From a bacterium BMS3Bbin10 (lineage in GTDB: Bacteria; Pseudomonadota; Alphaproteobacteria; Rhizobiales; Methyloligellaceae), in assembly GCA_002897995.1 (NCBI GenBank), contig BDTT01000031.1:1-52029 (forward strand): a stretch of DNA of 52,029 nucleotides, written 5' to 3'. The notes beneath the pieces are model-generated. The model worked only from the letters and a program-made list of their open reading frames with translations, had not been told where the DNA came from and searched no databases. Every line of letters begins with the position of its first letter. The first letter of the stretch is position 1. The translations under genes were made by a program, and so were the position numbers. This document shows positions 15,494 to 33,927 of this stretch, one piece after another.

Positions 15494-15546
15494 TCCATAC
15501 TCTCCGTATACTTCTATGCAGCAGAGTTGGGGGCAGCGCTTAAAAT

Positions 15547-17796: not shown

Positions 17797-19742
17797 GCCG
17801 CCGATCCCTGGACCGGCGTTTGGGCCGCGCGGGTTTCCTCCCTCTCGCGCTGCAACTCCAGCGTGCCGTCCTTGAGCGCATAGACCCTGTCGGCAAGGCT
17901 GAGAAAGGACGGCCGGTTGGAGACGATGATCACCGTCACCCGGCCCTTGAGGCTCAACAGCCCCTGGCGAAGAGCCCCGTCGCTCCGGAAGTCGAGCAGG
18001 GTATTCGCCTCGTCGAAGATAAGGATTTTCGGGTTGCGCGCGAGCGCCCGCGCGATGGAGATGCGTTGCAGCATACCTGAGGAGAGCTCCTGGGCCACGC
18101 CTTGGGAAAGCGGCGTGTCATAGCCGTCCGGCAAACGGTGGATGTCCTCTTCCAGCCCGATGAGCTTGGCCGCCTGCTGCGCTGCCTCAACTGCCGCTCC
18201 GGGGCGAAACATTGTGATGTTTTCAAGAATGGTGCCCCTGAACGTCGCCGTATTGGCCGAAACATACGCCACGCCCTTCACCTGCAAATGCTCGCGGTCC
18301 GGCTGCGAGGCCAGCCCGCCTATGACCACGCCGCCGCTGGTGGGTTCAAGTTCCCCGGTGATGAGCTTCACCAGGGTTGAACGGCCGCTGCCGCTCTCGC
18401 CCCTGATGCCGACGAACTCCCCCGGAGCCACCTGCAGCGAGATGCCGGCGAGGCAGGCGTTTTTGTTCGTACCGGAATACTGGAACGCCACATCGTTCAG
18501 ATCGATGGCGCCCGTGATTTCACCGGCCGCAGGCGCCGCCGCGCTGTCTCCGGCCTCAAGATCACCGAATTTTCCGGCACGTTCCTGGGCCAGTTTTATG
18601 TTCTGAAACTCGGTCCACATATGGATGCCGCGCAGCACCGGCTGTGTCAGCCGCCCCGACAGCAATGAGCTACAGGCAAGCCCGCCGATGCTGAGGCTGC
18701 CGGCCATGACCAGCAGGGCCCCCACCGAAACCACCGATATCATCATCAGGTTGGCGAACAGGATACCCATGGACTGAAGGTTGTTGCCGAGCAGGATCGT
18801 GTCGTAACTGGCGACCGCCGAACCCTTCTGCAGCCGTTCGAAACGGCGCAGAATCATCGGCTCCATGGCCAGGCCCTTCAGCGTGTGAATGCCGGACAGG
18901 CATTCGACCAGAAAGTCATGCTTGCGGTTATCCTGCTCCGAGCGGACGGCTAATACATTTTGCAGACGCGAACCGTGAATGGCCGCCAGTGCGCCGAACC
19001 CGATGATCAGCAGGATCGGCACGATAATGAGCGGTCCGGCGACAAGGCCCAGCATAATGAGGAAAATGCCGGCAAGAGGGATGTCCAGGGTGAGCAGACG
19101 CGACTGCCCTCCCTCAAACGCGCTCAGTTCACGCACCGCTTCCAGGCCGTCGACCCAGGTGGCGGGGGGCTCCTTTTCCACCCTGGCGTGAGGCGCCCTA
19201 AGCAGACGCGTGACGGCGGTGAGCTGCGCGTCAAAGCCGGAATGAACCGCGCTCCACCCCAGCAGATAAGAGCGCATGACTTTCAGCAGGGCATCCAGTG
19301 CAAAAGCGACGAACAGACCCAATGTGAGCAGCGTCAGCGTATCGACCGACTGGTTCGGGAGAATGCGGTCATAGATTTGCAGCACCGCCAGCGGCAATGC
19401 CAGCCCGAGCAGGGAGGAAACGACGGAAGCGACGATGATCGGAGCCGGCAGGCGCAGGCCCTCCTTGAAGATTTCAAGGAAGCCGCCGAGATTGTGAGCT
19501 TTTGGCCTCTCCTTCGCTCTTGCCGCAGACCGTGCCTCGGCTGGTGCAGATGCGGGCGCGGGAGAGGGTGCGGCGGGCGGATCGGACTTTTTCGGTTTTG
19601 CCTTGCGCCTCAGCCATGACCTTTTGGGGCGCGGCCCGGCGCCCCCGGCATTTTCATTTTCAGCCCTCAGACGATTGCGCAAACTCCGGACGGTCGGGCG
19701 ATCCCCGCCGTCCCTCTCACCTTGGACCAGTTGATCGTCCAT
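17793..19742 (-). CDS. Type I secretion ABC exporter, first subunit (Walker A Lys and H-loop His lost)
   Basis: 649 aa. A charged, Pro- and Ala-rich cytoplasmic head (1-85) precedes six membrane helices (about 100-380) and an ATPase domain. Walker A is GESGSGRS (448-455), with Arg454 in place of the ATP-binding Lys. The H-loop residue is Asn609 and the Q-loop lacks its Gln (YVSANTATF), but Walker B keeps Asp577-Glu578 and the signature LSSGM (553-557) is nearly normal. It is the first gene of ABC-ABC-HlyD-TolC. With the next subunit it can form only one near-complete ATP site, made of that subunit's Walker motifs and this one's signature. Confidence 0.9.
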   Translation of the reverse strand: MDDQLVQGERDGGDRPTVRSLRNRLRAENENAGGAGPRPKRSWLRRKAKPKKSDPPAAPSPAPASAPAEARSAARAKERPKAHNLGGFLEIFKEGLRLPAPIIVASVVSSLLGLALPLAVLQIYDRILPNQSVDTLTLLTLGLFVAFALDALLKVMRSYLLGWSAVHSGFDAQLTAVTRLLRAPHARVEKEPPATWVDGLEAVRELSAFEGGQSRLLTLDIPLAGIFLIMLGLVAGPLIIVPILLIIGFGALAAIHGSRLQNVLAVRSEQDNRKHDFLVECLSGIHTLKGLAMEPMILRRFERLQKGSAVASYDTILLGNNLQSMGILFANLMMISVVSVGALLVMAGSLSIGGLACSSLLSGRLTQPVLRGIHMWTEFQNIKLAQERAGKFGDLEAGDSAAAPAAGEITGAIDLNDVAFQYSGTNKNACLAGISLQVAPGEFVGIRGESGSGRSTLVKLITGELEPTSGGVVIGGLASQPDREHLQVKGVAYVSANTATFRGTILENITMFRPGAAVEAAQQAAKLIGLEEDIHRLPDGYDTPLSQGVAQELSSGMLQRISIARALARNPKILIFDEANTLLDFRSDGALRQGLLSLKGRVTVIIVSNRPSFLSLADRVYALKDGTLELQREREETRAAQTPVQGSAA

Positions 19743-20001: not shown

Positions 20002-21807
20002 ATGCCTGAAACGTCGCACATCACTGCAGAACGCCATGTGGCCGGTCCCCTTCTGTTCACTTTCGCAATCGTCACCGATACGCATATCCGCCCGCCCGAA
20101 GGAGACCAGTCCTCCCCTTTTCCCGTCAATGAGCTGGCCAACGCCCGGGCCCGCCACGCGGTCGCGGCAATTGCCCGCCATGCCCCCGATTTCACCATTC
20201 ACCTGGGCGACATGGTGCACCCGGTTCCAAATCTGCCGAGTTACGGCCCGGCGGCGGACGAAGCCCTGTCAATCCTTGAGCCGCTGGCCGAGGGACTGCG
20301 CTTTGTGCCGGGCAATCACGATGTCGGCGACAAGCCCATGCCCGCCACGCCGGCGGCGCCGGTCGACCGGCACAGCGTCGATATTTACGAGAAATATTTC
20401 GGCCCCGGCCATTACAGTTTCGACCATGGGGCTGTGCATTTCGTTGTTGTGAACTCATCCCTTGTCAACGCCGGCAACGCCTATGAGGAGAGCCAGCGCC
20501 AGTGGCTTGAAAAGGATCTGGCGGAGAATGGCGCGAAGCGGACGCTCCTGTTCTCCCATTACCCTCCCTTCATCGACAACACCTCAGAACCCTCCCACTA
20601 TGACAATTACGGCGAGCCGGGCCGGGCCTGGCTGCTGGCCCTGCTCGCGCGCCATGATGTGGAGGCCGTTTTTTCCGGTCATGTGCACCAGTTTTTCTAC
20701 AACCGGGTAGCGGGCATGAAACTCTATTGCCTGCCCCCGACGAGTTTCACGCGGCAGGACTATAGCGAGCTCTATGGCATCGGGCCCGCGCCCGAATACG
20801 GACGCAATGACGAGGGCAAGTTCAGCTACGCGATGATCGATGTCTTCGAGCGCGGGCACGCGCTCAGGGTTTATCCGACCGAAGGGCGCGGCCTCGAGGC
20901 CGGCGCGGCCATCGAACCCGAACCAGTCTCAAACAGTGGCGCGGTTAATCCCGTCACCGTGCATCTGCGCCACGGCTGGGCCAGATCCATGGACATGCCC
21001 TATAACGGCCCGATGGAAGAGTTTTCGCGCAAGCGCGCGCGCAACGACTATTCCTTATTGCGTTTGTGGCAGATGGGCATTACCCGCGTGCGCACGCCCC
21101 TTTGCGACCTTGCCAGCGGGCAGTATGGCCCCCGGGTGCAGGACTTTCACGCCGCCGGATGCAGCTTCACCTTTTTCTGCGCCGGTGTCGCGGAGCGCGC
21201 GGCGTGGGAGGAATGCTGCCGGAACACCCATCTGATCGATGCGGTGGAGTTCGTGACCTGCCGCGCCGATCTGTCGGATATCGGCGATGCGCTGGCGGGT
21301 TTTGAGCCGGGGCAAGGGCCCGAGATACATCTTGGAAAATTCCATTCCTCCGCCGATGAGCCGAAACACGGGTCGACCTTCGCCCATTCGGTGAGCTTCG
21401 GTTTCAAATGGGAAGACCGGGACGTGCTGCTCCCGGCGCTGAAAAAAGCCGACCCGAAGGGCGTTATCAAGGCGCTCGTCTTCCAGGTCAATATGGAGGA
21501 TGATTTAGCCGGGCGGCTCGGTGAAATAGATCAATTTGTGAAGGACAATGGCCTGAAAGGTGTCGCGAATATCCGCTTCGCCAATGTAAACCCGGCAATT
21601 GCCAATTTCGACGACAGGGCGATTGCGGCGCGCGTCGGGGAGGCCGCCGATATTGCTCCCGCGCTTGAGCGCACCAGCCTGCAATTCGACACCTTCGCCG
21701 ACATTGACCGCGGCTATCATCCACGGCACGGCCTGCTGGACGGGCGGTATAATTTCCGCCCCGCGGGCCGCGTGCTCATGGCGCGCTTCGGCCCCGCCGC
21801 GCCATAG
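20002..21807 (+). CDS. Calcineurin-like metallophosphoesterase with an extra C-terminal domain
   Basis: 601 aa, no signal peptide. Residues 20-235 hold a full two-metal phosphoesterase site: DTH (D26, H28), GDMVH (D70), GNHD (N105-D107), H186 and GHVH (H227, H229). Residues about 310-600 are a second domain that I do not recognise, rich in alternating strands and helices (RVRTPLCDLASG, VEFVTCRADLSD, GVANIRFANVNP), perhaps a barrel. Enzymes of this fold hydrolyse phosphomono- or diesters. A ribosome-binding site AGGATAG precedes the ATG. The gene faces the sulfatase block across a palindromic repeat and may belong to the same locus, but it is on the opposite strand. Confidence 0.85.
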   Translation: MPETSHITAERHVAGPLLFTFAIVTDTHIRPPEGDQSSPFPVNELANARARHAVAAIARHAPDFTIHLGDMVHPVPNLPSYGPAADEALSILEPLAEGLRFVPGNHDVGDKPMPATPAAPVDRHSVDIYEKYFGPGHYSFDHGAVHFVVVNSSLVNAGNAYEESQRQWLEKDLAENGAKRTLLFSHYPPFIDNTSEPSHYDNYGEPGRAWLLALLARHDVEAVFSGHVHQFFYNRVAGMKLYCLPPTSFTRQDYSELYGIGPAPEYGRNDEGKFSYAMIDVFERGHALRVYPTEGRGLEAGAAIEPEPVSNSGAVNPVTVHLRHGWARSMDMPYNGPMEEFSRKRARNDYSLLRLWQMGITRVRTPLCDLASGQYGPRVQDFHAAGCSFTFFCAGVAERAAWEECCRNTHLIDAVEFVTCRADLSDIGDALAGFEPGQGPEIHLGKFHSSADEPKHGSTFAHSVSFGFKWEDRDVLLPALKKADPKGVIKALVFQVNMEDDLAGRLGEIDQFVKDNGLKGVANIRFANVNPAIANFDDRAIAARVGEAADIAPALERTSLQFDTFADIDRGYHPRHGLLDGRYNFRPAGRVLMARFGPAAP

Positions 21808-21960: not shown

Positions 21961-23427
21961 TCAGTCGAATTCCGGGGTCACGCCGGGCGGCACGGAAAAG
22001 CCGAGGTCGCCGCGTTCAATAACGGCATCGCGCCCGCCTTTTTCCTTCAGCAGCTTTTTCTGCGCGTCCTTGGCCGCGGCATCGATCGCGCGCGGGTCGC
22101 AGATCTCAAACAGCTGGGCCTTCAACTCTTCCAGAATAGGCTTTGCGTTCGCGTCCTCCGCAAGGTCGTTGAGTTCTTCGGGGTCTTCTCCAAGGTCGAA
22201 GAGTTGCGGCGGGTAGTTGGCGTAGTAGACGAGTTTGTAGGGACCTTTGCGGATCATGTAGGCTGCGGTCTTCGAGCCCATGGCATGATACTCGGAAAAT
22301 ACCGCACGGTCCTTCCCCTCCCCGGCGATCAGCCGCATCACATCAATGCCCGGATGGTCATCGGTGAGCGTTTCAGGCGATGTCTCGCCGGTGCATTCCA
22401 TGAAGAAGGGATAGAGGTCCAGAAGATTGGTCGGCGTGTCCACCGTAACTCCGGCCGGAATATCGGGACCGCTCATGATGAGCGGGACGCCAACAGATTC
22501 CTCCAGCATGGTCGACTTGCCCCACAGTCCCCGGGCGCCCAGATTGTCACCATGATCGGATGTGTAAACGACGCGCGTATCGCCGGTCAGGTCAGCGTCG
22601 TCGAGCGCCTGAAGGACGTTTCCGACATTATAATCGAGAAAACTGCACAGGCCCAGATACCCGGCCTGGGCACGCTTCACCATATCCGCATTTTCAAAGA
22701 AATCGTCATAGGCGAATGATGCGCGGTAGTCCTCAAGATAGGGGTGCAATGGCTTGTCGCGCATCGCGTAAAGTTTGGGTTCCGGCAAATCCTGATCGTA
22801 ATAGGGATAGAAGTATTCCGGCGGCGCCGTCAGCGGAAAATGCGGGCACACGAAGGACACGAACAGCACCCACGGCTTGTCGGTAAATTTGCCGGCTTCC
22901 TCGCGCAGCCAAACCTGCGCAAGGGCGGCGATCTCCCGGTCATAGGTGGTGTAAATCGACTCGCCCGGCCCGGCCATGCGGGCCATCTTGTAAGCGCCGC
23001 CGCGCTTGGGCATATCCTCGTCGCGGACAAGACCAAGCAGATCGCCCTCACCGTCGACAATGTGCATGCCGATCCGTTCGTCGGAGAAGCCGTTGTCGTC
23101 GTCGCTGGACTGGAAATGGAGCTTTCCTATGGAAACGACCTGATGGCCGCGCTCCCGCAACAGGGCGTGCCAGCTCGGCAACGACCCGTCGAAAGGCATG
23201 GCGTTGTCCCACAGCCCGATCTGATGCACATATTTACCCGTGGCGAAGGCCGCCCGCGCCGGAACGCAGACCGGACACGGCGTATAGGCGGCCTCGAAAC
23301 GCGCGCCCTGGCGCGACAACCGGTCCAGGTTGGGCGTTTTGACAATGTCATGCCCGTAGCAGCCGGCCACACGCCGATTGTGCTGATCCGACATGATAAT
23401 CAGAAGGTTGGTAGTTCGTGCGGACAT
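21961..23427 (-). CDS. Cytoplasmic formylglycine-type sulfatase (choline-sulfatase-like)
   Basis: 488 aa from the ATG at 23427. The sulfatase core is complete: metal ligands in IMSDQH (D14, Q15), the formylglycine motif CVPAR (C54 to be oxidised, R58), GKLHF (K102, H104) and TSDHGD (D291, H292). No signal peptide is visible, so it should act inside the cell, as choline sulfatases do. The related phosphonate monoester hydrolases share this fold, so a phospho-substrate is possible. The ATG overlaps the stop of the DUF3604 gene by one base (TAATG), so the two are translationally coupled. No formylglycine-generating enzyme gene is in the window. Confidence 0.88.
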   Translation of the reverse strand: MSARTTNLLIIMSDQHNRRVAGCYGHDIVKTPNLDRLSRQGARFEAAYTPCPVCVPARAAFATGKYVHQIGLWDNAMPFDGSLPSWHALLRERGHQVVSIGKLHFQSSDDDNGFSDERIGMHIVDGEGDLLGLVRDEDMPKRGGAYKMARMAGPGESIYTTYDREIAALAQVWLREEAGKFTDKPWVLFVSFVCPHFPLTAPPEYFYPYYDQDLPEPKLYAMRDKPLHPYLEDYRASFAYDDFFENADMVKRAQAGYLGLCSFLDYNVGNVLQALDDADLTGDTRVVYTSDHGDNLGARGLWGKSTMLEESVGVPLIMSGPDIPAGVTVDTPTNLLDLYPFFMECTGETSPETLTDDHPGIDVMRLIAGEGKDRAVFSEYHAMGSKTAAYMIRKGPYKLVYYANYPPQLFDLGEDPEELNDLAEDANAKPILEELKAQLFEICDPRAIDAAAKDAQKKLLKEKGGRDAVIERGDLGFSVPPGVTPEFD

Positions 23428-25712
23428 TATCTGTATATGTAAATCGGGCTCGACCAAGCCTGATTGCCATCCTCCTGAGTGACCCGGACATAAATAGGAT
23501 TGTCTCCCTCGTCGCGCAACGCGATTTCCTGTTCGACAGTCATCTCGAAGTGAGGATTGTCGTCCGGCAGCCGGAACAGGCGGAGCTTGCGGCCAAGTTT
23601 GCCCGCATCGAACACCGTGTCTTCGAAACCGATGCTCCCGATATCCACTTTCTCGCTCACGACCGGCGTCTGAATATCGATGCTTCCGCTCATTCCCCCC
23701 TCCAGCCAAACGTCGAAGCCGCCGTAATTTCCGGTGGTCAGGGCTCTCCAGGCAAGGGTGGTGCCGCTCACCTGATCGAGCGTCTTGTCCTTGTTGAAGA
23801 AGTTGATGCCGCGGGCCCTGGTCACGCGATTACCGGTGAATTCGGCCGTCCCGTCCCAGATGACCTGGCGGAAGCGGCCGCGATATTCAGCTCCCTCCCA
23901 GATAACCCGTATCCGGTCTCCAAGATCGTCTTCGGCGTAGGGCCTGTGCGTGGCGAGGTGCTCAAGACCATTGAAAATATCGACCCGCTCGATTGGCGCG
24001 GAACCGATCATATGAACTTTGAGCACCGCGTTGCCCGATGGCAGATGCACGATATCGCCCATCATGGCTTCGCGTGAGGCGCTCCCCTGCGCAGCCCCGA
24101 GCGCGGGATCGTCATGGTAGAGTTGGCCTTCCGCGCCGAAGCTCGCCACGACGTCGAGGATCATCCGGTTGCCGGTGGTCCCGTAATGGCGCCGCTTGCG
24201 GTAGCAGTCGAAAATCGCCGCCCGCGTCAACTCGGAGGTGAGGAAGCAGGTGAGCCCGCCAATCGCGCCGAATTTTGAACTTCCGGGATAGCTGGCGCCG
24301 GGCCGGCCCTTGTGGCCGTCGGAATTGCACACCACGCCCATCCGGTATCCCATCTCAAGGGCGTCGTGCAAAATCCATTCGAAGGTTCCCCACGAGGAAT
24401 GCACCTCGACGGCTGTCTCCACCCGGCCGTCATGGGCCACTTTCACATCTGCGTAGCGGCCCCCGCAATGGGCCAGGCAGACCGTGTCCTCGCCATTTTC
24501 GATGAGCTTTTCAAACAGCTCCGCCGCAGTGCCGCAGTCGGTATCGACATCGCTGAGATCGTTGATGAGCGCGTGGGAGGAGCGGTAGATCGGCCTGTCC
24601 TCGGTCATATAGAACACGTTCCGGTCGCCGCCGAGGAATGTGTTTCCCGACCATTCGTAACCCGGCAGGGTGACGAAACGCCCCGGTTCGTTGAATTCGC
24701 CGATAATGTCGTTCAATTCGGCCCAGAACTCTTTGGTGATCTGGAAGTCGTTGCCCTGATGGCCGGTCACATCGACAAAGGCCTTATTCCGGGCGAACTC
24801 CATATATTGCCGGGCGCTGCCCGTCCCGATGGTCTCCTCGCTCTGACCGTGCACATCGCCCCAGAAATGCAATAGCTGGCCGGCTTCAGGTTCAACGATG
24901 CGTATCGGATTGGCGGTCGCCAAGACGTCGCCCGCTTCATTGAGCATTTCAATATGGTACGTTCCGGGCTCATCGGCTTTCAGCCCTTCGATTACTTCAG
25001 CGAATTCGCCGGTTGAAAATGTTACCGTTTCGGGCAGGCCTGACAGTTCCGGTGTGCTGCGCAACCGCACGCTTGCGCTGACCTTGTCGCTCGGATTGCC
25101 CCATTTGTCTTCGGCCTTGAGGGATAAACGGAATGGCTTCCCGGCGGGATGGGTGGTGGGGGCAATGGCGCGCCAGGTTTCGGGCGGGCCGGGTACGATA
25201 TTGATCACCGGCTGATCGGGCACGGGAACATAGGTGTAGGTGGCAATGGCATCGACGAGGACGCGGAACTCGTAGGTGTCCTCGCAGAAAGTCTGCAACC
25301 GCATGCCGGGCGAACCGCCGCTTTGCTCGCCAAACACAATCGTGATCGTGTCCCCTTCCTTCATGAAGCCGTTCACGATCTTGATATAGAGGGTTCTGTC
25401 CCAGGGCCGCACATTGCCCTTGGGGTCGTAGCGCACCTCCAGTTTGGCGTTATTGCTGGCGGTGACGGTGGTGTAGCCCGGCGCCTTGGGATCGTCGAAC
25501 TGGGGATTCGTCTGATCGGACGCGAAGCGCGACACGATCTTGATGCTGCCGCTGTCGTCGATGCCGTAAAAACCCGCCGTGTAAACAAGCGTGAAGCTGG
25601 CCCAGGAGCCGGCTTCTATCGCACCCGATGGCTCTATGGCCGCGGTCCCTGAAAGTTCCAGCGGTATATTGCCTGAAAGATTGCCCAGGAACTGGTTCTG
25701 GCTTCCCTCCAC
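23427..25712 (-). CDS. DUF3604 family protein (PHP-like metal site)
   Basis: 761 aa from a GTG at 25712, chosen because AGAGGAGAG lies just upstream; an upstream ATG at 25799 would add 29 atypical residues. The N-terminal 280 residues form beta-sandwich-like segments. The DUF3604 domain follows, with HFWGDVHGQSEE (near 282-293), a metal site like that of PHP-domain hydrolases, then GHQGNDF, CLAHCGGRYADV and NSDGHKGRPG. The C-terminal part is again beta-rich. No signal peptide is seen. The function of DUF3604 is not established. Tight coupling to the sulfatase suggests that both act on one substrate. It is the last but one gene of the minus-strand block. Confidence 0.82.
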   Translation of the reverse strand: MEGSQNQFLGNLSGNIPLELSGTAAIEPSGAIEAGSWASFTLVYTAGFYGIDDSGSIKIVSRFASDQTNPQFDDPKAPGYTTVTASNNAKLEVRYDPKGNVRPWDRTLYIKIVNGFMKEGDTITIVFGEQSGGSPGMRLQTFCEDTYEFRVLVDAIATYTYVPVPDQPVINIVPGPPETWRAIAPTTHPAGKPFRLSLKAEDKWGNPSDKVSASVRLRSTPELSGLPETVTFSTGEFAEVIEGLKADEPGTYHIEMLNEAGDVLATANPIRIVEPEAGQLLHFWGDVHGQSEETIGTGSARQYMEFARNKAFVDVTGHQGNDFQITKEFWAELNDIIGEFNEPGRFVTLPGYEWSGNTFLGGDRNVFYMTEDRPIYRSSHALINDLSDVDTDCGTAAELFEKLIENGEDTVCLAHCGGRYADVKVAHDGRVETAVEVHSSWGTFEWILHDALEMGYRMGVVCNSDGHKGRPGASYPGSSKFGAIGGLTCFLTSELTRAAIFDCYRKRRHYGTTGNRMILDVVASFGAEGQLYHDDPALGAAQGSASREAMMGDIVHLPSGNAVLKVHMIGSAPIERVDIFNGLEHLATHRPYAEDDLGDRIRVIWEGAEYRGRFRQVIWDGTAEFTGNRVTRARGINFFNKDKTLDQVSGTTLAWRALTTGNYGGFDVWLEGGMSGSIDIQTPVVSEKVDIGSIGFEDTVFDAGKLGRKLRLFRLPDDNPHFEMTVEQEIALRDEGDNPIYVRVTQEDGNQAWSSPIYIYR

Positions 25713-25829: not shown

Positions 25830-26123
25830 TCAGGCGGCAGCAGCTTGCTGCGGTGCCGCGCCTTTAATTGTTGTGCGGTGCATGGTCCGCTCATATTTCG
25901 AAAACCCGCAGGGCGTTGCGCGGCGCATCGCGCGGCGGTTGTCCCGCATCACGATGTCACCGGGGCGCCACCTGCGGGCATGGATGAATTCCGGCTGTGT
26001 GGCGTGGGCGCAGAGTCGCTCCAGCAGAGCCTCGACCGTTTCCGCATCCGGCGGCTCGGACAAATCGAGGTTCCCGATTTCCCCAACATAGGTTTTTCCA
26101 ATTTTTTTCAACGATATTGCCAT
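25830..26123 (-). pseudogene. Remnant of a TauD/TfdA-type dioxygenase with internal deletion
   Basis: 97 codons that join the N-terminal start of a TauD-like protein (TYVGEIGNLDLSEPPDAETV) directly to its C-terminal end (HATQPEFIHARRWRPGDIV and YERTMHRTTIKG). About 190 residues in between, including the HxD iron motif, are missing without breaking the frame. In the remaining end, the normal W-D-N-R...MHRATP reads R-D-N-R...MRRATP, so the second iron-binding His is also lost. It lies 9 bases after the permease stop, where a TauD is expected beside a Tau/Ssu-type importer. A short protein may still be made, but it cannot be an iron dioxygenase. Confidence 0.8.
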
Positions 26124-26132
26124 GACGCCCTC

Positions 26133-27035
26133 CTATCGCTGCATGCCCCAACGGTTGACGGTGCGAAGCTCAATGTTCCGGAACACGACATTCTCCACGA
26201 CGATGCCGAACAGGATCACCATGAACAGGCCAGCGAAAACGCCATCGGTATCGATGTTCTGGCTGGATTCGAATATGTACCAGCCAAGCCCGCCGCTGCC
26301 CGAAGACGCGCCGAACACCAACTCGGCGCCAATCAGCGTGCGCCAGGCGAAGGCCCAGCCGATCTTCATGCCTGCGAGGATCGAGGGGAGCGCGGCGGGA
26401 ACAAGAATTTTCAGGACATAGAGGATGCCCTTCAGGCCGTAATTGCGCCCGATCATCCGCAGTGTGTGACTGACATTTTCGAACCCGCTATGGGTGGAGA
26501 GCGCGACCGCCCATAGTACCGAATGGATAAGAACAAAGACCAGGCTTGCGGTCCCCAGACCAAACCACAGCATCGCCAATGGCAGCAGCGCAATCGCGGG
26601 CAGCGGATTGAACATGGCCGTGGCCATGGCAATGAAATCGCTGCCGAAGCGGTTTGCCGTGGCCCAGAGGATCAGGAGTGCGGCGAGGATCAAGCCGGCC
26701 GAGTAGCCGATAAGCAGCACTTTCACCGAAAACCAGACCTTGTAGATCAGATCGCCATGGAACAGGGCGTTGTAGAGTGTCGTAAGGGAGACCAGAAAAC
26801 TCGGGAGCATCAGGGGTTCCACGTCGAACCCGACGGTGTAGCCCTGCCAGGTTGCAACCAGACTCAGCAGAATGACAGCCTTGCGAACACCGTTGATGTT
26901 CCAGATACGCTCGACCAGGGAAAGCTTGCGCGCAACATCGCCGGTCTTCGCCTGCGCGATATCGGAAACCTCATATTCGGGACGAATGACAAGCTCGGGA
27001 ATCGAGCCTTTTGGTTTCGCTGATCCGGTACTCAT
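26133..27035 (-). CDS. ABC importer permease 2 (SsuC/TauC type)
   Basis: 300 aa from the ATG at 27035, which overlaps the stop of permease 1 by four bases (ATGA); a further ATG at 27053 would lengthen the overlap. It has six hydrophobic segments and the EAA loop facing the ATPase (ILAGMKIGWAFAWRTLIGAE). The N-terminal stretch TGDVARKLSLVERIWNINGV closely matches TGDVARKLTLFERISDMNSV of permease 1, so the two arose by tandem duplication and probably form a heterodimer. SsuC/TauC permeases carry sulfonates, but nitrate, thiamine-precursor and other importers share this type. Confidence 0.9.
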   Translation of the reverse strand: MSTGSAKPKGSIPELVIRPEYEVSDIAQAKTGDVARKLSLVERIWNINGVRKAVILLSLVATWQGYTVGFDVEPLMLPSFLVSLTTLYNALFHGDLIYKVWFSVKVLLIGYSAGLILAALLILWATANRFGSDFIAMATAMFNPLPAIALLPLAMLWFGLGTASLVFVLIHSVLWAVALSTHSGFENVSHTLRMIGRNYGLKGILYVLKILVPAALPSILAGMKIGWAFAWRTLIGAELVFGASSGSGGLGWYIFESSQNIDTDGVFAGLFMVILFGIVVENVVFRNIELRTVNRWGMQR

Positions 27036-27931
27036 CGTGCCTGCATACCCCACCGGCGAACGGTCCGGTTCTCAATCGCGTTGAAAATAACATTCTCGAC
27101 GAATACGCCGACAAGAATAACCGTGAACAGACCCGCGAACACATGCGCGATCTGCAGGTCCATCTGGTTTGCAAATATGAACCAGCCGAGACCGCCGGAG
27201 GCGCCTTCACTTGTGTCGGAAATCGATCCGCCAAAGACCAGTTCCGCAGCGATGAGCGTACGCCACGCATAGGCCCAGCCGATCTTCAGGCCCATCAGGA
27301 TTTGCGGGAAAGCGGCGGGGATCAGCAACTTGCCAACATAAACAAGCCCCTTCAGTCCGTAGTTCCGCCCGACCATGCGCTGTGTCTCGCTGACACTCAT
27401 AAAACCCACATGGGCATTGAGCGCCACCGGCCAGATCACCGAATGCAGCAGCGTGAAGATAATGGCGTCGGCGCCGAGCCCGAACCACAGCAGGGCCAGG
27501 GGGAGCAGCGCGATGGCGGGGAGCGGATTGAGCATTGCCGTGAGCGTGCTCAGGACATCATTGCCGAACCGGGACATTGTCGCGGCCGTCGTCAGCAAAG
27601 TCGCGATCGCCAGGCCGATCGCGTAACCCGTCACCAATACGGTCATCGAGTTCCACACCATGGCCAGCAGCTGCTCGCTCATTACCGCCTGATACAATGC
27701 CTCGGCGGTCGCGGAGAATTTCGGCAGGATCAGTTCGGAGACCCCGCTCAGCCGCGTGTAAATCTCCCATGCCACGATCACCAGCACCAGGATCGACAGC
27801 TTCCGGACGCTGTTCATATCCGAAATACGCTCGAACAGCGTCAGCTTGCGCGCGACGTCGCCGGTTTCAGCCTTGCCAATTTCGTCGGCCTCGAATTCAG
27901 AACGGACTAGGACATTTGGTACGTTGCTCAT
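27032..27931 (-). CDS. ABC importer permease 1 (SsuC/TauC type)
   Basis: 299 aa, six membrane segments, with EAA loop ILMGLKIGWAYAWRTLIAAE. It is paralogous to permease 2 along its full length, including the soluble N-terminal head. Its ATG overlaps the ATPase stop by one base (TAATG). The usual SsuABC or TauABC importer has one permease gene acting as a homodimer, so two diverged copies are a departure that may allow an asymmetric path or a larger substrate. Confidence 0.9.
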   Translation of the reverse strand: MSNVPNVLVRSEFEADEIGKAETGDVARKLTLFERISDMNSVRKLSILVLVIVAWEIYTRLSGVSELILPKFSATAEALYQAVMSEQLLAMVWNSMTVLVTGYAIGLAIATLLTTAATMSRFGNDVLSTLTAMLNPLPAIALLPLALLWFGLGADAIIFTLLHSVIWPVALNAHVGFMSVSETQRMVGRNYGLKGLVYVGKLLIPAAFPQILMGLKIGWAYAWRTLIAAELVFGGSISDTSEGASGGLGWFIFANQMDLQIAHVFAGLFTVILVGVFVENVIFNAIENRTVRRWGMQAR

Positions 27932-28779
27932 TATGTACGGTCCGCAGCTTGGATTTCGTCCTCCAGGATTCTGTCCGCGAACAGCATGTCATGAATGTGC
28001 TGCTGCACTTTTACGAATTTCTTGTCGCCGACATTGTCATGGTTGAGATGATGCGCGTTCAGCTCCGCCTTGACCTGTCCCGGATGCGGCGACATGACAA
28101 GGATACGGCTGCCTACGATCAATGCCTCTTCAATGGAATGGGTGACAAAAAGAACCGTGAAATGGGTGTCCTCCCACAGTTGCAGAAGTTCTTTCTGCAT
28201 CTGCAGGCGGGTCAGTGCATCAAGGGCGGCGAAGGGTTCGTCCATGAGCAGGACATCGGGTTCCATCGCCATGCCGCGCGCGATCGCAACACGCTGCTTC
28301 ATACCGCCCGACAGCATATGCGGGTACGTATCCTCAAAACCGGTCAGCTTGACCTTGGTGATATACTCCATCGCTATATCTTCAGCCTCGGCCGCGGTAT
28401 CGGTCTTGCCGCCATTGTGAAGCGCGAAAATGATGTTCTGCTTGACCGTTTTCCAGGGCAGAAGCTGGTCGAACTCCTGAAACACCATGACCCGGTCGGG
28501 GCCTGGCTCGGAAATTTCACGGCCCTTGAGGCGAATAGACCCTTCCACCGGCTTCATATAGCCGGCAATGCCCTTGAGCACAGTCGACTTGCCACAGCCC
28601 GAGGGACCAAGCAGAACGAATCTGTCGGCCGGATAGACATCGAATCCGACGCGATAGGTCGCCGTGATCAGATGCTCCTTGGTCTTGTATTGGAGCGTGA
28701 CCCCGTCAACATTGAGAATTGGCTGGGTCGTGGCGGCGGCGGGCTTTTTGCCCGCCGCACTTCCATTGCGTTTAGCCAT
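27931..28779 (-). CDS. ABC importer ATPase (SsuB/TauB type)
   Basis: 282 aa. All ATPase motifs are intact: Walker A GPSGCGKST (58-66), Q-loop FQEFDQLLPW, signature LSGGMKQR (156-163), Walker B LLMDEPFAALD (D180, E181) and H-loop THSIEEA (H214). The Q-loop and EPFAALD wording are those of the nitrate/sulfonate/taurine importers. A short Lys- and Ala-rich head precedes the domain. It lies three bases after the binding-protein stop and is coupled to permease 1. Confidence 0.93.
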   Translation of the reverse strand: MAKRNGSAAGKKPAAATTQPILNVDGVTLQYKTKEHLITATYRVGFDVYPADRFVLLGPSGCGKSTVLKGIAGYMKPVEGSIRLKGREISEPGPDRVMVFQEFDQLLPWKTVKQNIIFALHNGGKTDTAAEAEDIAMEYITKVKLTGFEDTYPHMLSGGMKQRVAIARGMAMEPDVLLMDEPFAALDALTRLQMQKELLQLWEDTHFTVLFVTHSIEEALIVGSRILVMSPHPGQVKAELNAHHLNHDNVGDKKFVKVQQHIHDMLFADRILEDEIQAADRT

Positions 28780-28782
28780 GGA

Positions 28783-29829
28783 TCAGCTGCCGTCCTGATC
28801 GTAGCTGTTCTCCCAGTAATAGTCCTTCCAGCTCGCCGGCATATTCTTGATGGAGCCGATCGAGTACATGAACTTGGCAAACTCCATCGTGCGTTCCGGC
28901 GTTTGCGAATAAAGCATCTCGTTCGGATCGCCGACCATCTTCTCGATGTCCGCAAGTTTCAGCTTTGACTTCGTGAAGCGTTTATACAGGGCGGCGGCGG
29001 CCTTCTTGTCGCCGTTGATCCATTTGATGGCCTCGCCGTATGACGTATAGACGCAATTATACAGTTTCGGATTGGATTTCTTCCATTTTTCCATGTTGTA
29101 CATGGCGACCGTTGAGTGACGTCCACCCAGCACGTCATAGGAGGTGAGAACGTTATGAATCTTGCCGCTTTGCAGCTCCTGGTATGAGGTCGGCAGAGTC
29201 GCGAAGTGGCTCCTCACGGACTGACCGCCGGCCAGCAAGGCCGCGACGGCTGTCGGATGCTTCATCGACACCGTCAAGGGGTCGAGTTTGAATGCCTCCT
29301 TGGCGCCCCATTTCTTTTTGGCCGCCATTTGCAGGACAACCGCCTGGATCGAGACCTTGACCGAAGGCGTGGCGATCTTGTGGTCGGTAAGCCCCACATA
29401 GTCCTCAATCTTCTTGACCCGCGGATCATTGGTATTCAACTTGAGCGGCATCGCCGAAAGCGTCGTCATGGCCCGGACATTCAGCCGGCCCTTGGTCTTG
29501 TCCCAGAGTTTGAGAAGCGGGCCGATACCGCCGGCCGCAAAATCCACGTTACCCGACAAAAGGGCCTGGTTGACGGCCGCGCCGCCGCTGAAGCGATGCA
29601 TGGTGACCTTGATGTCACCAAGACCGGCTTTCGACGCGCAGGACTGGACCATCTTTTTGTCGACGACCACATGCATGGGGAGATAAAGAAGCCCGAATTG
29701 CTGGGCAAATCTCACCTGGTTCGTCTCCTGTGCAAACGCGGCGGACGGCATCGACGCCCCGGCGATCGCGAGGATTGCCGCACCGGCGGCAATTCTGCGA
29801 ACAGGATGTTGCTTGAAAGTTTTTGTCAC
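28783..29829 (-). CDS. Periplasmic substrate-binding protein of the NitT/TauT family
   Basis: 348 aa from a GTG at 29829 with GGGAGGAAAT seven bases upstream. A clear signal peptide (basic start, hydrophobic core, cleavage near AFA-QET at 33) is followed by an SsuA/NMT1-like fold: RFAQQFGLLYLPMHVVVDKK, GGAAVNQALLSGNVDFAAGG, and a hinge with TPSVKVSIQA. Such proteins bind sulfonates, nitrate or pyrimidine precursors, and the pocket residues cannot be read by eye. The gene heads the importer part of the block; a 13-base tandem repeat lies just before it. Confidence 0.9.
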   Translation of the reverse strand: MTKTFKQHPVRRIAAGAAILAIAGASMPSAAFAQETNQVRFAQQFGLLYLPMHVVVDKKMVQSCASKAGLGDIKVTMHRFSGGAAVNQALLSGNVDFAAGGIGPLLKLWDKTKGRLNVRAMTTLSAMPLKLNTNDPRVKKIEDYVGLTDHKIATPSVKVSIQAVVLQMAAKKKWGAKEAFKLDPLTVSMKHPTAVAALLAGGQSVRSHFATLPTSYQELQSGKIHNVLTSYDVLGGRHSTVAMYNMEKWKKSNPKLYNCVYTSYGEAIKWINGDKKAAAALYKRFTKSKLKLADIEKMVGDPNEMLYSQTPERTMEFAKFMYSIGSIKNMPASWKDYYWENSYDQDGS

Positions 29830-29952: not shown

Positions 29953-30777
29953 TCACTCTGCCGCCGCCATCATGGCGCTCGGTCCCACGACACTGAGACC
30001 GGCGCGCAACGCTTCGGTTTCAAAGACATCGTGAGGCATTACATTCGCCAGGTTCACATTCGAGCCAAATTCTGAAATCAGGAATTTCTTGAGGTCATAG
30101 ACGTCGCAATTGCGCGTGCCGGGTATCCAGGGTCCGATCAGCTCGAAAATCACACGGCTCACATCGAGGCCGTCGCGAAGCTCGGCGAGCAGCCGCCGGT
30201 TCGGCTCACCGTCCGTGAGAAGCTCCGCGCCCTCCACCAGAACAACGTCCGCCCCCGCGTCGAAACATTCGTTCGCCTGCGCAATGAGCGTCGCCGCGCC
30301 GGTGTCTTCGCTCTTGGAGCCAACTTCACCATGCACCTCAAGACCGCAATCGACGGCGGTGCGTATCAGGGTCTGGCGCGCTTTGCGATCCAGAGGAACG
30401 CAATTGTCCGACACCTCGATGGCTTCAAAACCGAGCCGTTTGGCTTCCTCGAAATACGGCTTCGCGCTGGATAATCCCTGCGTCGCATAAATATATTCGA
30501 GAAACTGGCCGCCGATGAACGGATGCACATCGTGCTTTTTGTAGAGCGCTATCTTTTGCAGCAAATAGTCTTCTTCATAGAGCCGCGCCGTGCCGGAGAC
30601 GAATTTGGCCAGATCCGCAAAAGGCGCAACAAGATCGAGCCAGTCCTCTTGCATGCCAAGCGGCAGGCCCCAATCCATCATCATCGTCAGCCCGCTGCTG
30701 CGAGGCTTGCTCCGGCTGCGTTCCGCCGGGAGCTGAACAAGGGAAAAAGGTCCGGAACTGGACTTGAGACCTGTCAT
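29953..30777 (-). CDS. Phosphosulfolactate synthase (ComA)-like protein
   Basis: 274 aa from the ATG at 30777, which overlaps the regulator's stop by four bases. It follows the ComA family closely: KPRSSGLTMMMDWGL (24-38), DLAKFVSGTARLY with K58, FIGGQFLEY (88-96), LGFEAIEVSDNCVPL with E121 and D124, and GLEVHGEVGSK (145-155), ending in a GPWIPG stretch. ComA joins sulfite to phosphoenolpyruvate to make phosphosulfolactate in coenzyme M synthesis and in Bacillus spores; plant HSA32 is a relative with another role. Here it lies between a GntR regulator and a sulfonate-type importer, so a C-S bond-making or -breaking role in organosulfur metabolism is likely but unproven. Confidence 0.85.
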   Translation of the reverse strand: MTGLKSSSGPFSLVQLPAERSRSKPRSSGLTMMMDWGLPLGMQEDWLDLVAPFADLAKFVSGTARLYEEDYLLQKIALYKKHDVHPFIGGQFLEYIYATQGLSSAKPYFEEAKRLGFEAIEVSDNCVPLDRKARQTLIRTAVDCGLEVHGEVGSKSEDTGAATLIAQANECFDAGADVVLVEGAELLTDGEPNRRLLAELRDGLDVSRVIFELIGPWIPGTRNCDVYDLKKFLISEFGSNVNLANVMPHDVFETEALRAGLSVVGPSAMMAAAE

Positions 30778-31601
30778 TCGAGTTTCTCCGAGAGCTCGAT
30801 GGGCAGGTGCCCCGGGGGAAGAAAAACCTGCTGGTAGGTCGCGGGCGCATCCCGGTAGGACCGCCCGAGAACTTGCCAGAATGTGCCGAAGCTGCCCTTG
30901 GCAAGCCCCAGTTTTTCGCAGACATCGGGAGCAAGCCGCACGCACTGGACCTGATGTTCAAAACGCAGGGTGGGCATGTTGTAGCTCTTGTTGAGGAATT
31001 CGCGCAAAGTCAGCCCGCTCAACTCCTCATGAGTTCTCTTGAGCAAGGAACCATAACGTTCGAACGGCAGATAGAACCGGGTAACTCCCTTAAAGCGATC
31101 GGCTACATTCATGATGCGTTCGATCCGTACGAACGATTTTCCGGAATTCAGGAATTCCGCCCAGGGCGGCTTGAGGCCCTCCGTCTCGGCGTCAATTTTT
31201 ACAATGGACTCTACCTGCAGATATATCGGCAGGAGCGACTGGCTGTTGTCCGATCTGAAACGGAAATGGACCAGATCGTCCTTTGCGACCATTTTCTCGT
31301 CTGTGCGGTCGGCACGCGGGTTCGCGCCCGCGACAAAAGTGCCCATTCCCGGACGCCGAAAGACGACGCCCTGATCGACAAGGGCGTTCATGGCCTTCTG
31401 GATGGTGCCGAGACTGACGGGAAGACTTTCCATCAGATCTCTTTCGCCGGGCATTCGCGAGCCGGGTCTGAATTCTCCAGACTCGATTGCGTCCAGCATT
31501 GCATTGGACAGCCGCAGATATTTCGGAACTCTTTCCATGCCAAAGGTCGACGACTGCGAGAATCGCTGGGCAATGGAAGATGTATTGAGGGTTTCACTCA
31601 C
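30774..31601 (-). CDS. GntR/HutC family regulator (UTRA domain)
   Basis: 275 aa. The N-terminal winged helix (about 27-95: YLRLSNAMLDAIESGEFRPG, SRMPGERDLMESLPVSLGT, GVVFRRPGMGTFVAG) is followed by a UTRA ligand-binding domain (about 115-270) with VRIERIMNV and a closing TYQQVFLPPGHLP. HutC-type regulators usually repress until they bind a small effector, often the pathway substrate. The gene overlaps the ComA-like gene (ATGA), so it is probably in the operon it controls. A 24-bp palindrome 73-96 bases upstream of its start is the likely operator. The effector should be the imported compound or its product. Confidence 0.92.
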   Translation of the reverse strand: MSETLNTSSIAQRFSQSSTFGMERVPKYLRLSNAMLDAIESGEFRPGSRMPGERDLMESLPVSLGTIQKAMNALVDQGVVFRRPGMGTFVAGANPRADRTDEKMVAKDDLVHFRFRSDNSQSLLPIYLQVESIVKIDAETEGLKPPWAEFLNSGKSFVRIERIMNVADRFKGVTRFYLPFERYGSLLKRTHEELSGLTLREFLNKSYNMPTLRFEHQVQCVRLAPDVCEKLGLAKGSFGTFWQVLGRSYRDAPATYQQVFLPPGHLPIELSEKLE

Positions 31602-31739: not shown

Positions 31740-32168
31740 CTATTTTCTTTCGATAATTGTCAGCGTTCCCGCGGCGGGATTGACTTCGACAATGTCGCCG
31801 GTCCCGACGGCGCTGGTCACATCATGTTCGAACCGGTCGAGCAGAGGCAGGTCCGCATAGGCGGCCCCCTGCGCCATAATCGGATTTGCAAAGTTCAGAA
31901 CCAGAGCCTTCGGGCCCATGTCGCGGGACATCATCTCCTTGAGCATCCAGGCGGACGCCACGCCCCCCTTCGCGGCGTTCAGGATGAGGATTTTATCGAC
32001 ATAGTTTTCGCCATGCAGTTTGTGCTGGGGGCGTGAGAACCGGCCCTTCAGCCGGTCCAGGTCATAACGGGCGCTGAAATTGTCATGCGCAACCAAAGCC
32101 TCGCCGCGGACCGTATGCCCGATGCCCGGGTGGCCCTTGAGAATATTCTCTTTTCCTTGCCTGGTCAT
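31740..32168 (-). CDS. AcnX small (swivel) subunit
   Basis: 142 aa, the swivel domain of aconitase X. It opens with a GHPGIGHTVRGEALV stretch, then SARYDLDRLKGRFSRPQHKLHGENYVDKILIL, a GGVASAWMLKEM helix and PIMAQGAAYADLP. The equivalent aconitase domain closes over the active site. Known AcnX enzymes dehydrate cis-3-hydroxy-L-proline in bacteria or mevalonate 5-phosphate in archaea. Its ATG overlaps the large-subunit stop (ATGA), so the two are made together. The genes usual beside hydroxyproline dehydratases (ketimine reductase, racemase) are absent. Confidence 0.87.
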   Translation of the reverse strand: MTRQGKENILKGHPGIGHTVRGEALVAHDNFSARYDLDRLKGRFSRPQHKLHGENYVDKILILNAAKGGVASAWMLKEMMSRDMGPKALVLNFANPIMAQGAAYADLPLLDRFEHDVTSAVGTGDIVEVNPAAGTLTIIERK

Positions 32169-33418
32169 CGCACCAACCTGCCCTGGATGGCGGATTCAAC
32201 ACAGCACTCCAGCGAAGCGAGCACCGGCTCATATCCGTAACCGCCGATGATATTGACCAGCTTTGCCGAATTGGTCAGCAGGCGTTTCCATCCTTTTGCC
32301 TCGCCGATCTCACGCGCGCACATCTGATAGAAGCAGACTCCCTGGAGCAGCATGCCGCCGGCCCCCTCGATCTTTGCCGTCACGCCCATGCGATCAGCCG
32401 CCGTTTTCACCTCCGGGGAAACCGTGGCGATCAGCGCGACTTTTTCATTGATCTGCTGGCCGTCGAGCAAATCCGCAACCTCGCTGATTTCCATCAATGA
32501 CAATTGGGGAGCGGCGAACACAACCACGTCAACGACGTCATCCTGCGGCCAATAGGCTTCGATAAACGCGTTTATGTCACTGGTGCCGATCACTCCCATC
32601 GTTTCGGGGGCATCGACCAGCGCAACACGCCCGTCAAACGCCTCGGGCGTAACGCCGACCATATGAAACAGGGCCGTCGACCCGTAGCTGGCGAGAGCCG
32701 CCCCAAAATGTTTCAGCTCATCGGACGTCGGGCGCCGGTGCAATACGTCAAGCTCGACTACCGGGACATCCCAATAGGATTCCATTTGCCGGCCGATGAC
32801 GCCGCCCAGCGCGCCCCAATCCGCAAAGTCCCGGGGTTGATGATCGACTTTGAAAATCTTGCGCCCCCTGCGGTATTCCTCGAGATGAAAACCGTATCGC
32901 GGCGCGCGTCCCGTCAGCGCCGAAGCGAGCGCGGAGGGGCCGCCCTGAAAATTCGTGCGCGCGCCCTGCACGGAGTTGGCGTAGATCGATGAGCCGGTAT
33001 CGCCGAAAGCGAGATGTTCCCCCAGAACCGGCGGCATGATCGTTTGATAGTTGATGCAGGTGTCGGTCATCATGACGCCCATCTCGCGGAAGGCGTCGAT
33101 TGCCCGGCGCTCCAGATCGGCCATCCGGTCGCTCTGGCCAAGCTCCTTGTAATGTTCAAAATCGATGCCGCGCGGATCCGTGACCGTGGGCACCTTGACT
33201 GCACGCTCCTCGGGCGGGTGACCCGCCAGTTTCTCCAGGAACACCACGCCGTCCTCGCCAAGCGATTCGGTATCCGCCATCAGATGAACCTGGGCGACCT
33301 CGACACAGTCTTCGGCATCGAAGAAATTACCGACCTTGACGATCTGGTCCATGCCGAATTGCCGCGGCCAACCGTGTTTTCCGCTCAGCATGTCCTGTTC
33401 ATATTCACTCAATCGCAT
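32165..33418 (-). CDS. AcnX large (catalytic) subunit
   Basis: 417 aa from the ATG at 33418; a GTG at 33472 would add 18 residues not typical of the family. It starts with the AcnX opening MRLSEYEQDMLSGKHG, then VGNFFDAEDCVEVAQVHL, KVPTVTDPRGIDF, CINYQTIMPPVLGEHLAFGDTGSS split over two motifs, and late cysteines in GVCFYQMC and SLECCVES that can hold the Fe-S cluster. It should be a hydro-lyase acting on a hydroxy-acid-like compound. It is the first gene of the block whose later members are the ComA-like protein and the sulfonate-type importer, so its substrate is probably an intermediate of that route. Confidence 0.87.
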   Translation of the reverse strand: MRLSEYEQDMLSGKHGWPRQFGMDQIVKVGNFFDAEDCVEVAQVHLMADTESLGEDGVVFLEKLAGHPPEERAVKVPTVTDPRGIDFEHYKELGQSDRMADLERRAIDAFREMGVMMTDTCINYQTIMPPVLGEHLAFGDTGSSIYANSVQGARTNFQGGPSALASALTGRAPRYGFHLEEYRRGRKIFKVDHQPRDFADWGALGGVIGRQMESYWDVPVVELDVLHRRPTSDELKHFGAALASYGSTALFHMVGVTPEAFDGRVALVDAPETMGVIGTSDINAFIEAYWPQDDVVDVVVFAAPQLSLMEISEVADLLDGQQINEKVALIATVSPEVKTAADRMGVTAKIEGAGGMLLQGVCFYQMCAREIGEAKGWKRLLTNSAKLVNIIGGYGYEPVLASLECCVESAIQGRLVR

Positions 33419-33927
33419 TGGCGCCCCCGTCTCCCCCGCGTGAATTGCACCGAATTCGGTTCGAGCAACCACCCGGCGATCCAGTTATCTCCGCCCGCCC
33501 CGGCCGTATATTCCAGGCAGCGGGCACTGCCCCAAGTCATAAACACATGAATACGGAGAGGGATACCCCCCAGTCTCCACCCGCCGGACCGTCCGCCAAT
33601 CAATGGCGGCGGCGGAACAATTGCGGAGATTGTCCGCATTATCCCAAAAAATGGATCTGCCCTATCCCCGGAAAACGGAAATGAATCTGCGCGGCCCGGA
33701 ATATCTGTTTTGCGCCGCGAGCAATATTCAGTGCTGACAAGCGCCCCCGGCCCCGTGCCACACGAGCCCGTGATCCGGCCCCCTATTCTATGATCCGCAA
33801 TCTTCGGTTATCATCCGGGCCCGTTCGAGGGATCATCTGGAAAAACCGGGCTGGTTGTCTATATTCACCGCCCCCGGAGGGCGCTTAACAGCGCCAATAC
33901 CACGTAGCCGGAGTTGCAGAACTTCAA
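33419..33927. other. Intergenic stretch with small inverted repeats, no gene seen
   Basis: 509 bases between the divergent AcnX large-subunit gene and the membrane-protein gene. No open frame here looks like a protein. I see two small inverted repeats: TGCGGA-GATTG-TCCGCA (33622-33638) and a GGCGCT-TAAC-AGCGCC hairpin (33880-33895) 32 bases before the plus-strand gene. No copy of the GntR palindrome is present. Promoters for both flanking genes must be here, but none is clear by eye. Confidence 0.5.

Follow-up and report, generated by a model that had tools for sequence, protein, structure and literature searches.

The 52,029-nucleotide window analyzed here (contig BDTT01000031.1, from the alphaproteobacterial assembly BMS3Bbin10) carries on its reverse strand a gene for a DUF3604 protein, followed directly by a gene for an S1 sulfatase. 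The two genes are not merely a pair. They belong to a run of 11 genes, from position 33472 down to 21961, which also contains the two subunits of an aconitase X (AcnX), a GntR-type regulator, a ComA-like protein, an ATP-binding cassette (ABC) importer and a remnant of tauD. A gene for a metallophosphoesterase (MPE) is convergent with the sulfatase gene. The features are as follows, with the basis of each assignment in parentheses.

32165..33472, reverse strand: aconitase X large subunit (Pfam)
31740..32168, reverse strand: aconitase X small subunit, swivel domain (Pfam)
30774..31601, reverse strand: GntR/UTRA regulator (Pfam, NCBIfam)
29953..30777, reverse strand: ComA/phosphosulfolactate synthase-like protein (Pfam, NCBIfam)
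28783..29829, reverse strand: substrate-binding protein of the ABC importer, SsuA family, below cut-off (Pfam, NCBIfam)
27931..28779, reverse strand: ATPase of the importer (Pfam)
27032..27931, reverse strand: permease 1 of the importer (Pfam)
26133..27035, reverse strand: permease 2 of the importer, SsuC/SaoP/TauC-like, below the NCBIfam cut-offs (Pfam, NCBIfam)
25830..26123, reverse strand: tauD remnant, 97 codons (Pfam, comparison with relatives)
23427..25712, reverse strand: DUF3604 protein, 761 residues (Pfam, AlphaFold2 model, sequence)
23425..23429, reverse strand: TAATG, one-base stop/start overlap (read from the sequence)
21961..23427, reverse strand: S1 formylglycine-type (CVPAR) sulfatase, 488 residues (Pfam, NCBIfam, structure search)
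20002..21807, forward strand: calcineurin-like MPE with a C-terminal extension (Pfam)

The stop codon TAA of the DUF3604 gene (23429-23427) and the ATG of the sulfatase gene (23427-23425) have one base in common, as stated in the preliminary description of this locus, and the reverse strand across the junction reads TACATATACAGATAATGTCC. By inspection, no Shine-Dalgarno sequence is visible for the sulfatase ATG, which makes re-initiation after the DUF3604 stop plausible. The overlap probably couples translation of the sulfatase to that of DUF3604, as a routine operon junction would. Overlaps are found at five of the ten junctions of the run (4, 4, 1, 4 and 1 bases), a count that depends on the chosen starts, the ATG codons of ComA (30777) and permease 2 (27035) having been picked to give an overlap. 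The 4-base overlaps are located between the two AcnX genes, between GntR and ComA, and between the two permeases, and the ATPase/permease 1 junction is also TAATG. Among relatives (loci and retrieved stretches are denoted by L numbers), the DUF3604/sulfatase junction is TAATG in L076 and ATGA in L077, and in L078 the stop is followed by a gap of 39 bases. The TAATG junction was ruled out as a special feature, overlaps being common in the run and the junction type varying among relatives, and for the same reasons the suggestion that the two proteins are made in fixed ratio is not supported. The arrangement exceeds chance as part of an operon, not as a special junction.

The DUF3604 gene starts with GTG (25712), preceded by GAGGAGAGAGAA. 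The protein scores 49.9 bits against PF12228 (DUF3604), with a Pfam gathering cut-off of 20.4. Its AlphaFold2 model (37 sequences) has a mean predicted local distance difference test (pLDDT) score of 88 and a predicted template modeling score of 0.89, and consists of immunoglobulin (Ig)-like β domains (residues 16–276, approximately), a PHP metallohydrolase domain (residues 280–515, approximately) and a C-terminal β-rich part. The assignment of residues 280–515 to the PHP metallohydrolase fold comes from this model. With the program VIA-align, these residues are overlaid on the PHP protein TM0559 (2anu) with a Z score of 17.7 and an rms distance of 2.9 for 194 residues. For BVU_3505 (3e38) the Z score is 17.2 over 217 residues, and the following match has a Z score of 10.5. 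A Foldseek search with the whole model finds no PHP protein among the best 50 of 1983 rows, which contain β-rich, Ig-like and unrelated multi-domain proteins, probably because the N-terminal β domains fill the list.

The motifs GDVHGQ (Asp286 and His288) and SDGHKG (Asp465 and His467) had been interpreted as a PHP-type metal hydrolase site, and the predicted fold and the conservation of acidic and histidine residues agree with this. Of the candidate metal ligands, Asp286, Glu353, His415, Asp465 and His467 are invariant, and His288 nearly so, among 27 sequences with identities down to 28%. The fold and this DxH...E...H...DxH set liken DUF3604 to PHP-family metallohydrolases such as TM0559 and BVU_3505. 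The first motif of PHP proteins is HxH. In DUF3604, however, it is DVHGQ, and the domain is flanked by the Ig-like and C-terminal β parts.

The family is found across the proteobacteria and also on archaeal plasmids, and the word DUF3604 appears in a single paper of the literature searched. The protein has a weak match to the CehA/McbA model NF038032 (21.2 bits, E value of 1.6e-4), far under the cut-off of 80 bits. CehA hydrolyzes carbamates by an esterase-type reaction for which histidine residues are essential (PMC8292978), and these may correspond to residues in DUF3604. Moreover, two plasmid loci have genes annotated as amidohydrolase, Zn-dependent hydrolase or amidase no more than 10 kb away. 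DUF3604 could then be a carbamate, amide or ester hydrolase for nitrogenous organic compounds, with the neighboring sulfatase serving other substrates. We consider this improbable, as the profile match is so weak and as a sulfatase, TauE, Xsc or TauD recurs near DUF3604 in unrelated loci. A literature search on CehA together with the McbA family found nothing.

The sulfatase has 136.6 bits against PF00884 (Sulfatase; cut-off of 25) and carries the CxPxR signature as CVPAR. By inspection, the protein begins directly with the catalytic core and has no leader, which is consistent with the cytoplasmic location proposed earlier. Its best NCBIfam model is choline-sulfatase TIGR03417, with 297.3 bits and a cut-off of 433.45. 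The closest solved structures are also choline sulfatases (214 bits for 6fny), and the best match not so named has 144 bits. The enzyme could thus be a homolog of BetC (6fny, 7pth), with which it shares the S1 family and CxPxR, so that the locus would feed choline-O-sulfate into betaine synthesis with DUF3604 as an accessory. Permease 2 has a weak match to a choline ABC permease as well (32.8 bits, cut-off of 363). A choline hairpin, GW-X13-WYHN, with a clamp formed by Trp129 and His145, is described in a study of choline sulfatase (PMC9063841). In an alignment read by hand, the hairpin is absent from the sulfatase in the window, with a Leu residue at the position of Trp129 and a Tyr residue at that of His145. 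In addition, the operon is different from that of BetC, and no BetA- or BetB-type model was matched among the 10 proteins scanned. The identification as choline sulfatase was rejected based on the missing clamp and the TIGR03417 cut-off, and the use of choline-O-sulfate is the least probable explanation considered here.

A phosphorus compound is another candidate for the substrate of the operon. As a member of the alkaline phosphatase superfamily, the sulfatase would then hydrolyze phosphonate monoesters or phosphodiesters, DUF3604 would be a PHP phosphoesterase, and the convergent MPE would complete the path. Phosphoesters are the usual substrates of enzymes with PHP and calcineurin-like folds, and 2anu and 3e38 are titled phosphoesterases. 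Solved phosphonate monoester hydrolases match the sulfatase (101 bits for 4upk and 96 bits for 2w8s), and the GntR regulator weakly resembles PhnF (42.8 bits, cut-off of 156.8) and PhnR, with HutC scoring higher. A homolog of the MPE occupies the corresponding position in L077, and another is next to TauD and DUF3604 in L119; an AlphaFold2 model of the MPE, made with three sequences, was discarded (pLDDT of 57). On the other hand, the choline sulfatases are the closer structures (214 versus 144 bits), and the neighbors ComA, TauD, TauE, Xsc and formylglycine-generating enzyme (FGE) indicate sulfur. A phosphorus-degrading operon is unlikely, and for the phosphorylated substrate suggested earlier the observations speak neither for nor against.

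The importer matches the Pfam ABC and permease models. The ATPase and permease 1 were classed by Pfam only, and NCBIfam was run on the other parts, for which the best models are SsuA, SsuC, SaoP and TauC, with every score below its cut-off. These matches support the sulfonate-type importer noted earlier. No solved relative of the substrate-binding protein was found at an E value of 0.01 or lower. ComA has 189.5 bits against its Pfam model (cut-off of 25.2), and 161 bits against the phosphosulfolactate synthase model TIGR03849, under its cut-off of 280. Both aconitase X models, PF04412 and PF01989, are matched above the Pfam cut-offs, with 362.6 and 72.9 bits. The accessible parts of the literature searched name no substrate for the bacterial type II AcnX, and a search for phosphosulfolactate synthase with a sulfatase in one operon found nothing.

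The run was compared with relatives using one genome per species. The best 80 loci of at least 568 confirmed relatives, and 44 others, make up 124 DUF3604 loci; these are loci and not genomes, as some contigs were entered twice (L047 is L151) and some genomes have two loci. The order AcnX, GntR, ComA, SsuABC-like importer, tauD, DUF3604 and sulfatase is kept in L076 and L077, from Hyphomicrobiales metagenome-assembled genomes (MAGs). In L078, the part from GntR to the sulfatase is present, at the beginning of the contig. The genomes of L097 and L098, both Rhodospirillaceae MAGs, have the set within about 22 kb in a different order, with identities of 63% for the sulfatase, 60–61% each for ComA and DUF3604, 73–74% for the binding protein, 84% for the ATPase, 72–77% for the permeases and 27–29% for GntR. 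TauD is also present, and no AcnX was found on the stretches retrieved. The clearest indication of a functional group comes from this reshuffled set. In L119 (Gammaproteobacteria), AcnX, ComA, MPE, TauD and DUF3604 are found together, and the genome has no sulfatase match at an E value of 1e-30 or lower. DUF3604 is accompanied by AcnX in L049, L060, L137 and L148 as well. Close DUF3604 genes are also present in the named strains Filomicrobium insigne (L088) and Rhodobium orientis (L104), neither stretch having a match to the sulfatase.

With the window proteins as queries, the sulfatase is found in 10, ComA in 8 and AcnX in 5 of the best 80 loci, and in 4, 3 and 2, respectively, of the other 44. 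Full-length sulfatase relatives with at least 41% identity are present in 31 of 385 genomes, including that of the window, which has three sulfatase-family matches. Among the other 384 genomes, and with kinship left out of account, this sulfatase clade occurs in 16 of the 28 genomes with DUF3604 versus 14 of the 356 others, ComA in 9 versus 7, and AcnX of any type in 15 versus 24. For these counts, DUF3604 was accepted at an E value of 1e-100 or lower, ComA and AcnX above the Pfam cut-off, and the sulfatase at the identity given above, with at most four candidates scored per genome. Stretches centered on the partners of DUF3604 were retrieved as well. Among 20 centered on sulfatases of the window clade, TauD is found in one (L195) and importer parts in one (L204), and two of 10 centered on AcnX have the importer (L177 and L181). 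In these two, the AcnX pair is followed by the same type of importer (41–42% identity for the substrate-binding protein and 67–75% for the ATPase), with no match to DUF3604 or the sulfatase on the stretch.

The tauD gene is whole in L076 and L077 (287 residues) and in L078. In the window, 190 codons have been lost in frame, leaving 97, and the remnant matches only the final 59 positions of the TauD family in Pfam. The facial triad of TauD dioxygenases is HxD...H. It is not intact in the window, as the middle of the gene is gone and the distal metal-binding His residue is replaced by Arg. Two further TauD-family genes are located elsewhere in the genome. The ratios of nonsynonymous to synonymous substitution (dN/dS) relative to L076 and L077 (dS against L077 being close to saturation) are 0.13 and 0.04 for DUF3604, 0.07 and 0.05 for the sulfatase, and 0.36 and 0.26 for the tauD remnant. 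The two whole copies of tauD in L076 and L077 have a dN/dS of about 0.07 (dN of 0.10, dS of 1.46). The run therefore looks to be kept by selection while tauD decays.

Sulfatases near DUF3604 were sought by BLAST with the window sulfatase as the query, with which others may be missed. Of the 124 loci, 8 have an S1 sulfatase no more than 400 bp from DUF3604, and 14 have one no more than 10 kb away. In 6 of the 8, including L076–L078 with the operon type of the window, both genes are on the same strand. The divergent cases, L090 and L146, look like near-copies. In L070 and L071, TctA, TctC and DUF3604 are followed by a CxPYR sulfatase on the same strand, and in L070 (8983-13498) two tandem DUF3604 reading frames are located ahead of the sulfatase. 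L072 has two sulfatases on the same strand, one of them 50% identical to that in the window, followed by DUF3604. In L135 (9128-18725, Burkholderiales MAG), GntR, DUF3604, TctC, a sulfatase, TauD, a second sulfatase and a piece of FGE, truncated where the stretch ends, are on one strand. The sulfatases of L070, L071 and L135, and the nearer one of L072, are only 25–27% identical to that of the window, and the pairing has therefore probably arisen more than once. An adjacency of sulfatase and DUF3604 confined to this locus, which would have spoken against a connection between the two, is not what is found, as they are near each other in several unrelated arrangements, S1 sulfatases of other subfamilies among them.

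The other neighbors of DUF3604 were surveyed with a home-made open reading frame caller. With near-identical ones collapsed, it gave 203 neighbors within 600 bases, of which the 181 with at least 125 residues (92 upstream and 89 downstream) were used. The survey dropped the divergent sulfatase of L090, which is too short, and apparently its twin in L146, which was collapsed, and it excluded the distant DUF3604 loci L070–L075 and L039–L041. TauE/SafE is the commonest family upstream (11 of 92), followed by DctM (9), GntR (6), TauD (4), TctC (4) and TctA (3). Downstream (89), there are Acyltransf_2 (7), TctC (6), sulfatase (3), AcnX (2) and TauE (2). The 13 TauE among the 181 neighbors compare with about 0.2 expected, based on 183 in 58 genomes (about 162 Mb) and one gene per 1.05 kb.

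Xsc (sulfoacetaldehyde acetyltransferase) is the next gene upstream of DUF3604 in L085 and L102 (929 and 877 bits, cut-off of 676), and SauS is also present in L085 (758 bits, cut-off of 600). The gene content of L085 suggests a locus for sulfoacetaldehyde or sulfoacetate. The likeness to Xsc/SauS sulfoacetaldehyde catabolism is limited to this position of Xsc in L085 and L102, and there is no Xsc among the 12 listed genes of the window. In L085 (3792-13053), Xsc, SauS and succinyl-CoA-ligase-like genes are located beside DUF3604 and ComA, and the latter two seem to overlap as ATGA.

Taken together, we somewhat favor the interpretation that the 11-gene operon is a cytosolic module of organosulfur catabolism, in which DUF3604 hydrolyzes one bond and the sulfatase another. 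The SsuABC/TauABC-like importer would bring in a small organic anion that carries a sulfate or sulfonate group. The cytosolic DUF3604 enzyme, with the metal site of its predicted PHP fold, may hydrolyze an ester, amide or phosphoester bond, and the S1 sulfatase would strip a sulfate ester. In relatives, the intact TauD would oxygenate the sulfur-bearing carbon and free sulfite, a step whose gene is lost here. The ComA family converts phosphoenolpyruvate and sulfite to phosphosulfolactate, and the ComA of this run may handle sulfite or a sulfonate. AcnX would dehydrate a hydroxy-acid skeleton, and the GntR/UTRA regulator would control the run. What is imported, which of the two hydrolases acts first and what ComA and AcnX do are proposals. 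The earlier suggestion of a breakdown in two steps appears too narrow, as AcnX, ComA, TauD and MPE travel with the pair; the shared chemistry of the pair is retained in part, and needs to be widened to the operon.

The SsuA/SsuC/TauC-like importer likens this run to the tau/ssu/ats operons, which scavenge sulfonates and sulfate esters, and in relatives the dioxygenase of the TauD family is complete as well (180 bits to a solved TauD and to a phenoxypropionate dioxygenase, 114 to AtsK). In comparison, the run in the window adds ComA, AcnX, DUF3604 and the S1 sulfatase, and its tauD is broken.

Several observations weigh against the organosulfur module. For the binding protein, permease 2, ComA, AcnX and the sulfatase, the scores against the nearest named NCBIfam families all stay under the cut-offs. 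In 110 of the 124 DUF3604 loci, the stretch retrieved, in many cases a short one, shows no sulfatase. Among the 20 sulfatase-centered stretches, ComA is present in two (L185 and L186), AcnX in two (L187 and L188) and DUF3604 in none. None of 10 ComA-centered stretches has the sulfatase, AcnX or DUF3604 (L174 has no query match at all), and none of the 10 AcnX-centered stretches has the sulfatase or DUF3604. The partners seldom meet in these stretches, and the group is therefore loose outside DUF3604 loci. The co-occurrence and TauE counts, moreover, ignore kinship. SAR116/Puniceispirillum MAGs contribute at least 5 of the 11 TauE genes found upstream, and these are not independent. Genes for TRAP (tripartite ATP-independent periplasmic) and tripartite-tricarboxylate transporters also adjoin DUF3604 about as often as TauE does. 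Three of the four upstream TauD genes are those of L076–L078, and the three downstream sulfatases must also be from these loci, the operon type of the window itself. In addition, the genome of the window, given as 97.7% complete, has no match to FGE (PF03781), and no anaerobic sulfatase-maturating enzyme above the cut-off (best score of 50.5 bits, cut-off of 349). FGE-family matches are present in all 8 other genomes searched, those of L076 and L078 having nothing but split matches within a single longer frame, which may be EgtB-like. An unmodified choline sulfatase retains low activity, according to one report (PMC6189696).

The rarity of the partners together elsewhere, and the many DUF3604 genes examined with no sulfatase found nearby, would also be expected if the adjacency reflected operon drift and no common pathway. 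The conserved gene order, the reshuffled set, the purifying selection and the several independent pairings with sulfatases make drift very unlikely.

Three side observations concern other loci and the rest of the window. In L207 and L208, a molybdopterin oxidoreductase is located beside a sulfatase and ComA, with a further TauD-like gene (36–37% identity) a few kb away. ComA is about 200 bases from TauE/SafE on contig 14 of genome G037 (73127-74704), which has no DUF3604 match. Three collinear genes on the reverse strand of the window (14159-19742), encoding ABC transporter-like proteins of 649 and 749 residues (4-base overlap) and an HlyD-type protein of 444 residues, resemble a type I secretion set, with Pfam run on the 749- and 444-residue proteins only.

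DUF3604 gains a testable class of function from its recurrent tie to sulfatases, TauE/SafE exporters, TauD and Xsc. In its most specific form, which is doubtful at present, DUF3604 would be the first metal-dependent organosulfur hydrolase of the PHP fold. It would cleave the bond of a sulfate ester, a sulfamate or a sulfonate ester, or release sulfite, and would work together with S1 sulfatases, TauD and TauE exporters in an undescribed pathway that also uses ComA and AcnX. More generally, the operon points to a catabolic path for organosulfur compounds, with the bacterial ComA and the two-subunit aconitase X as further members.

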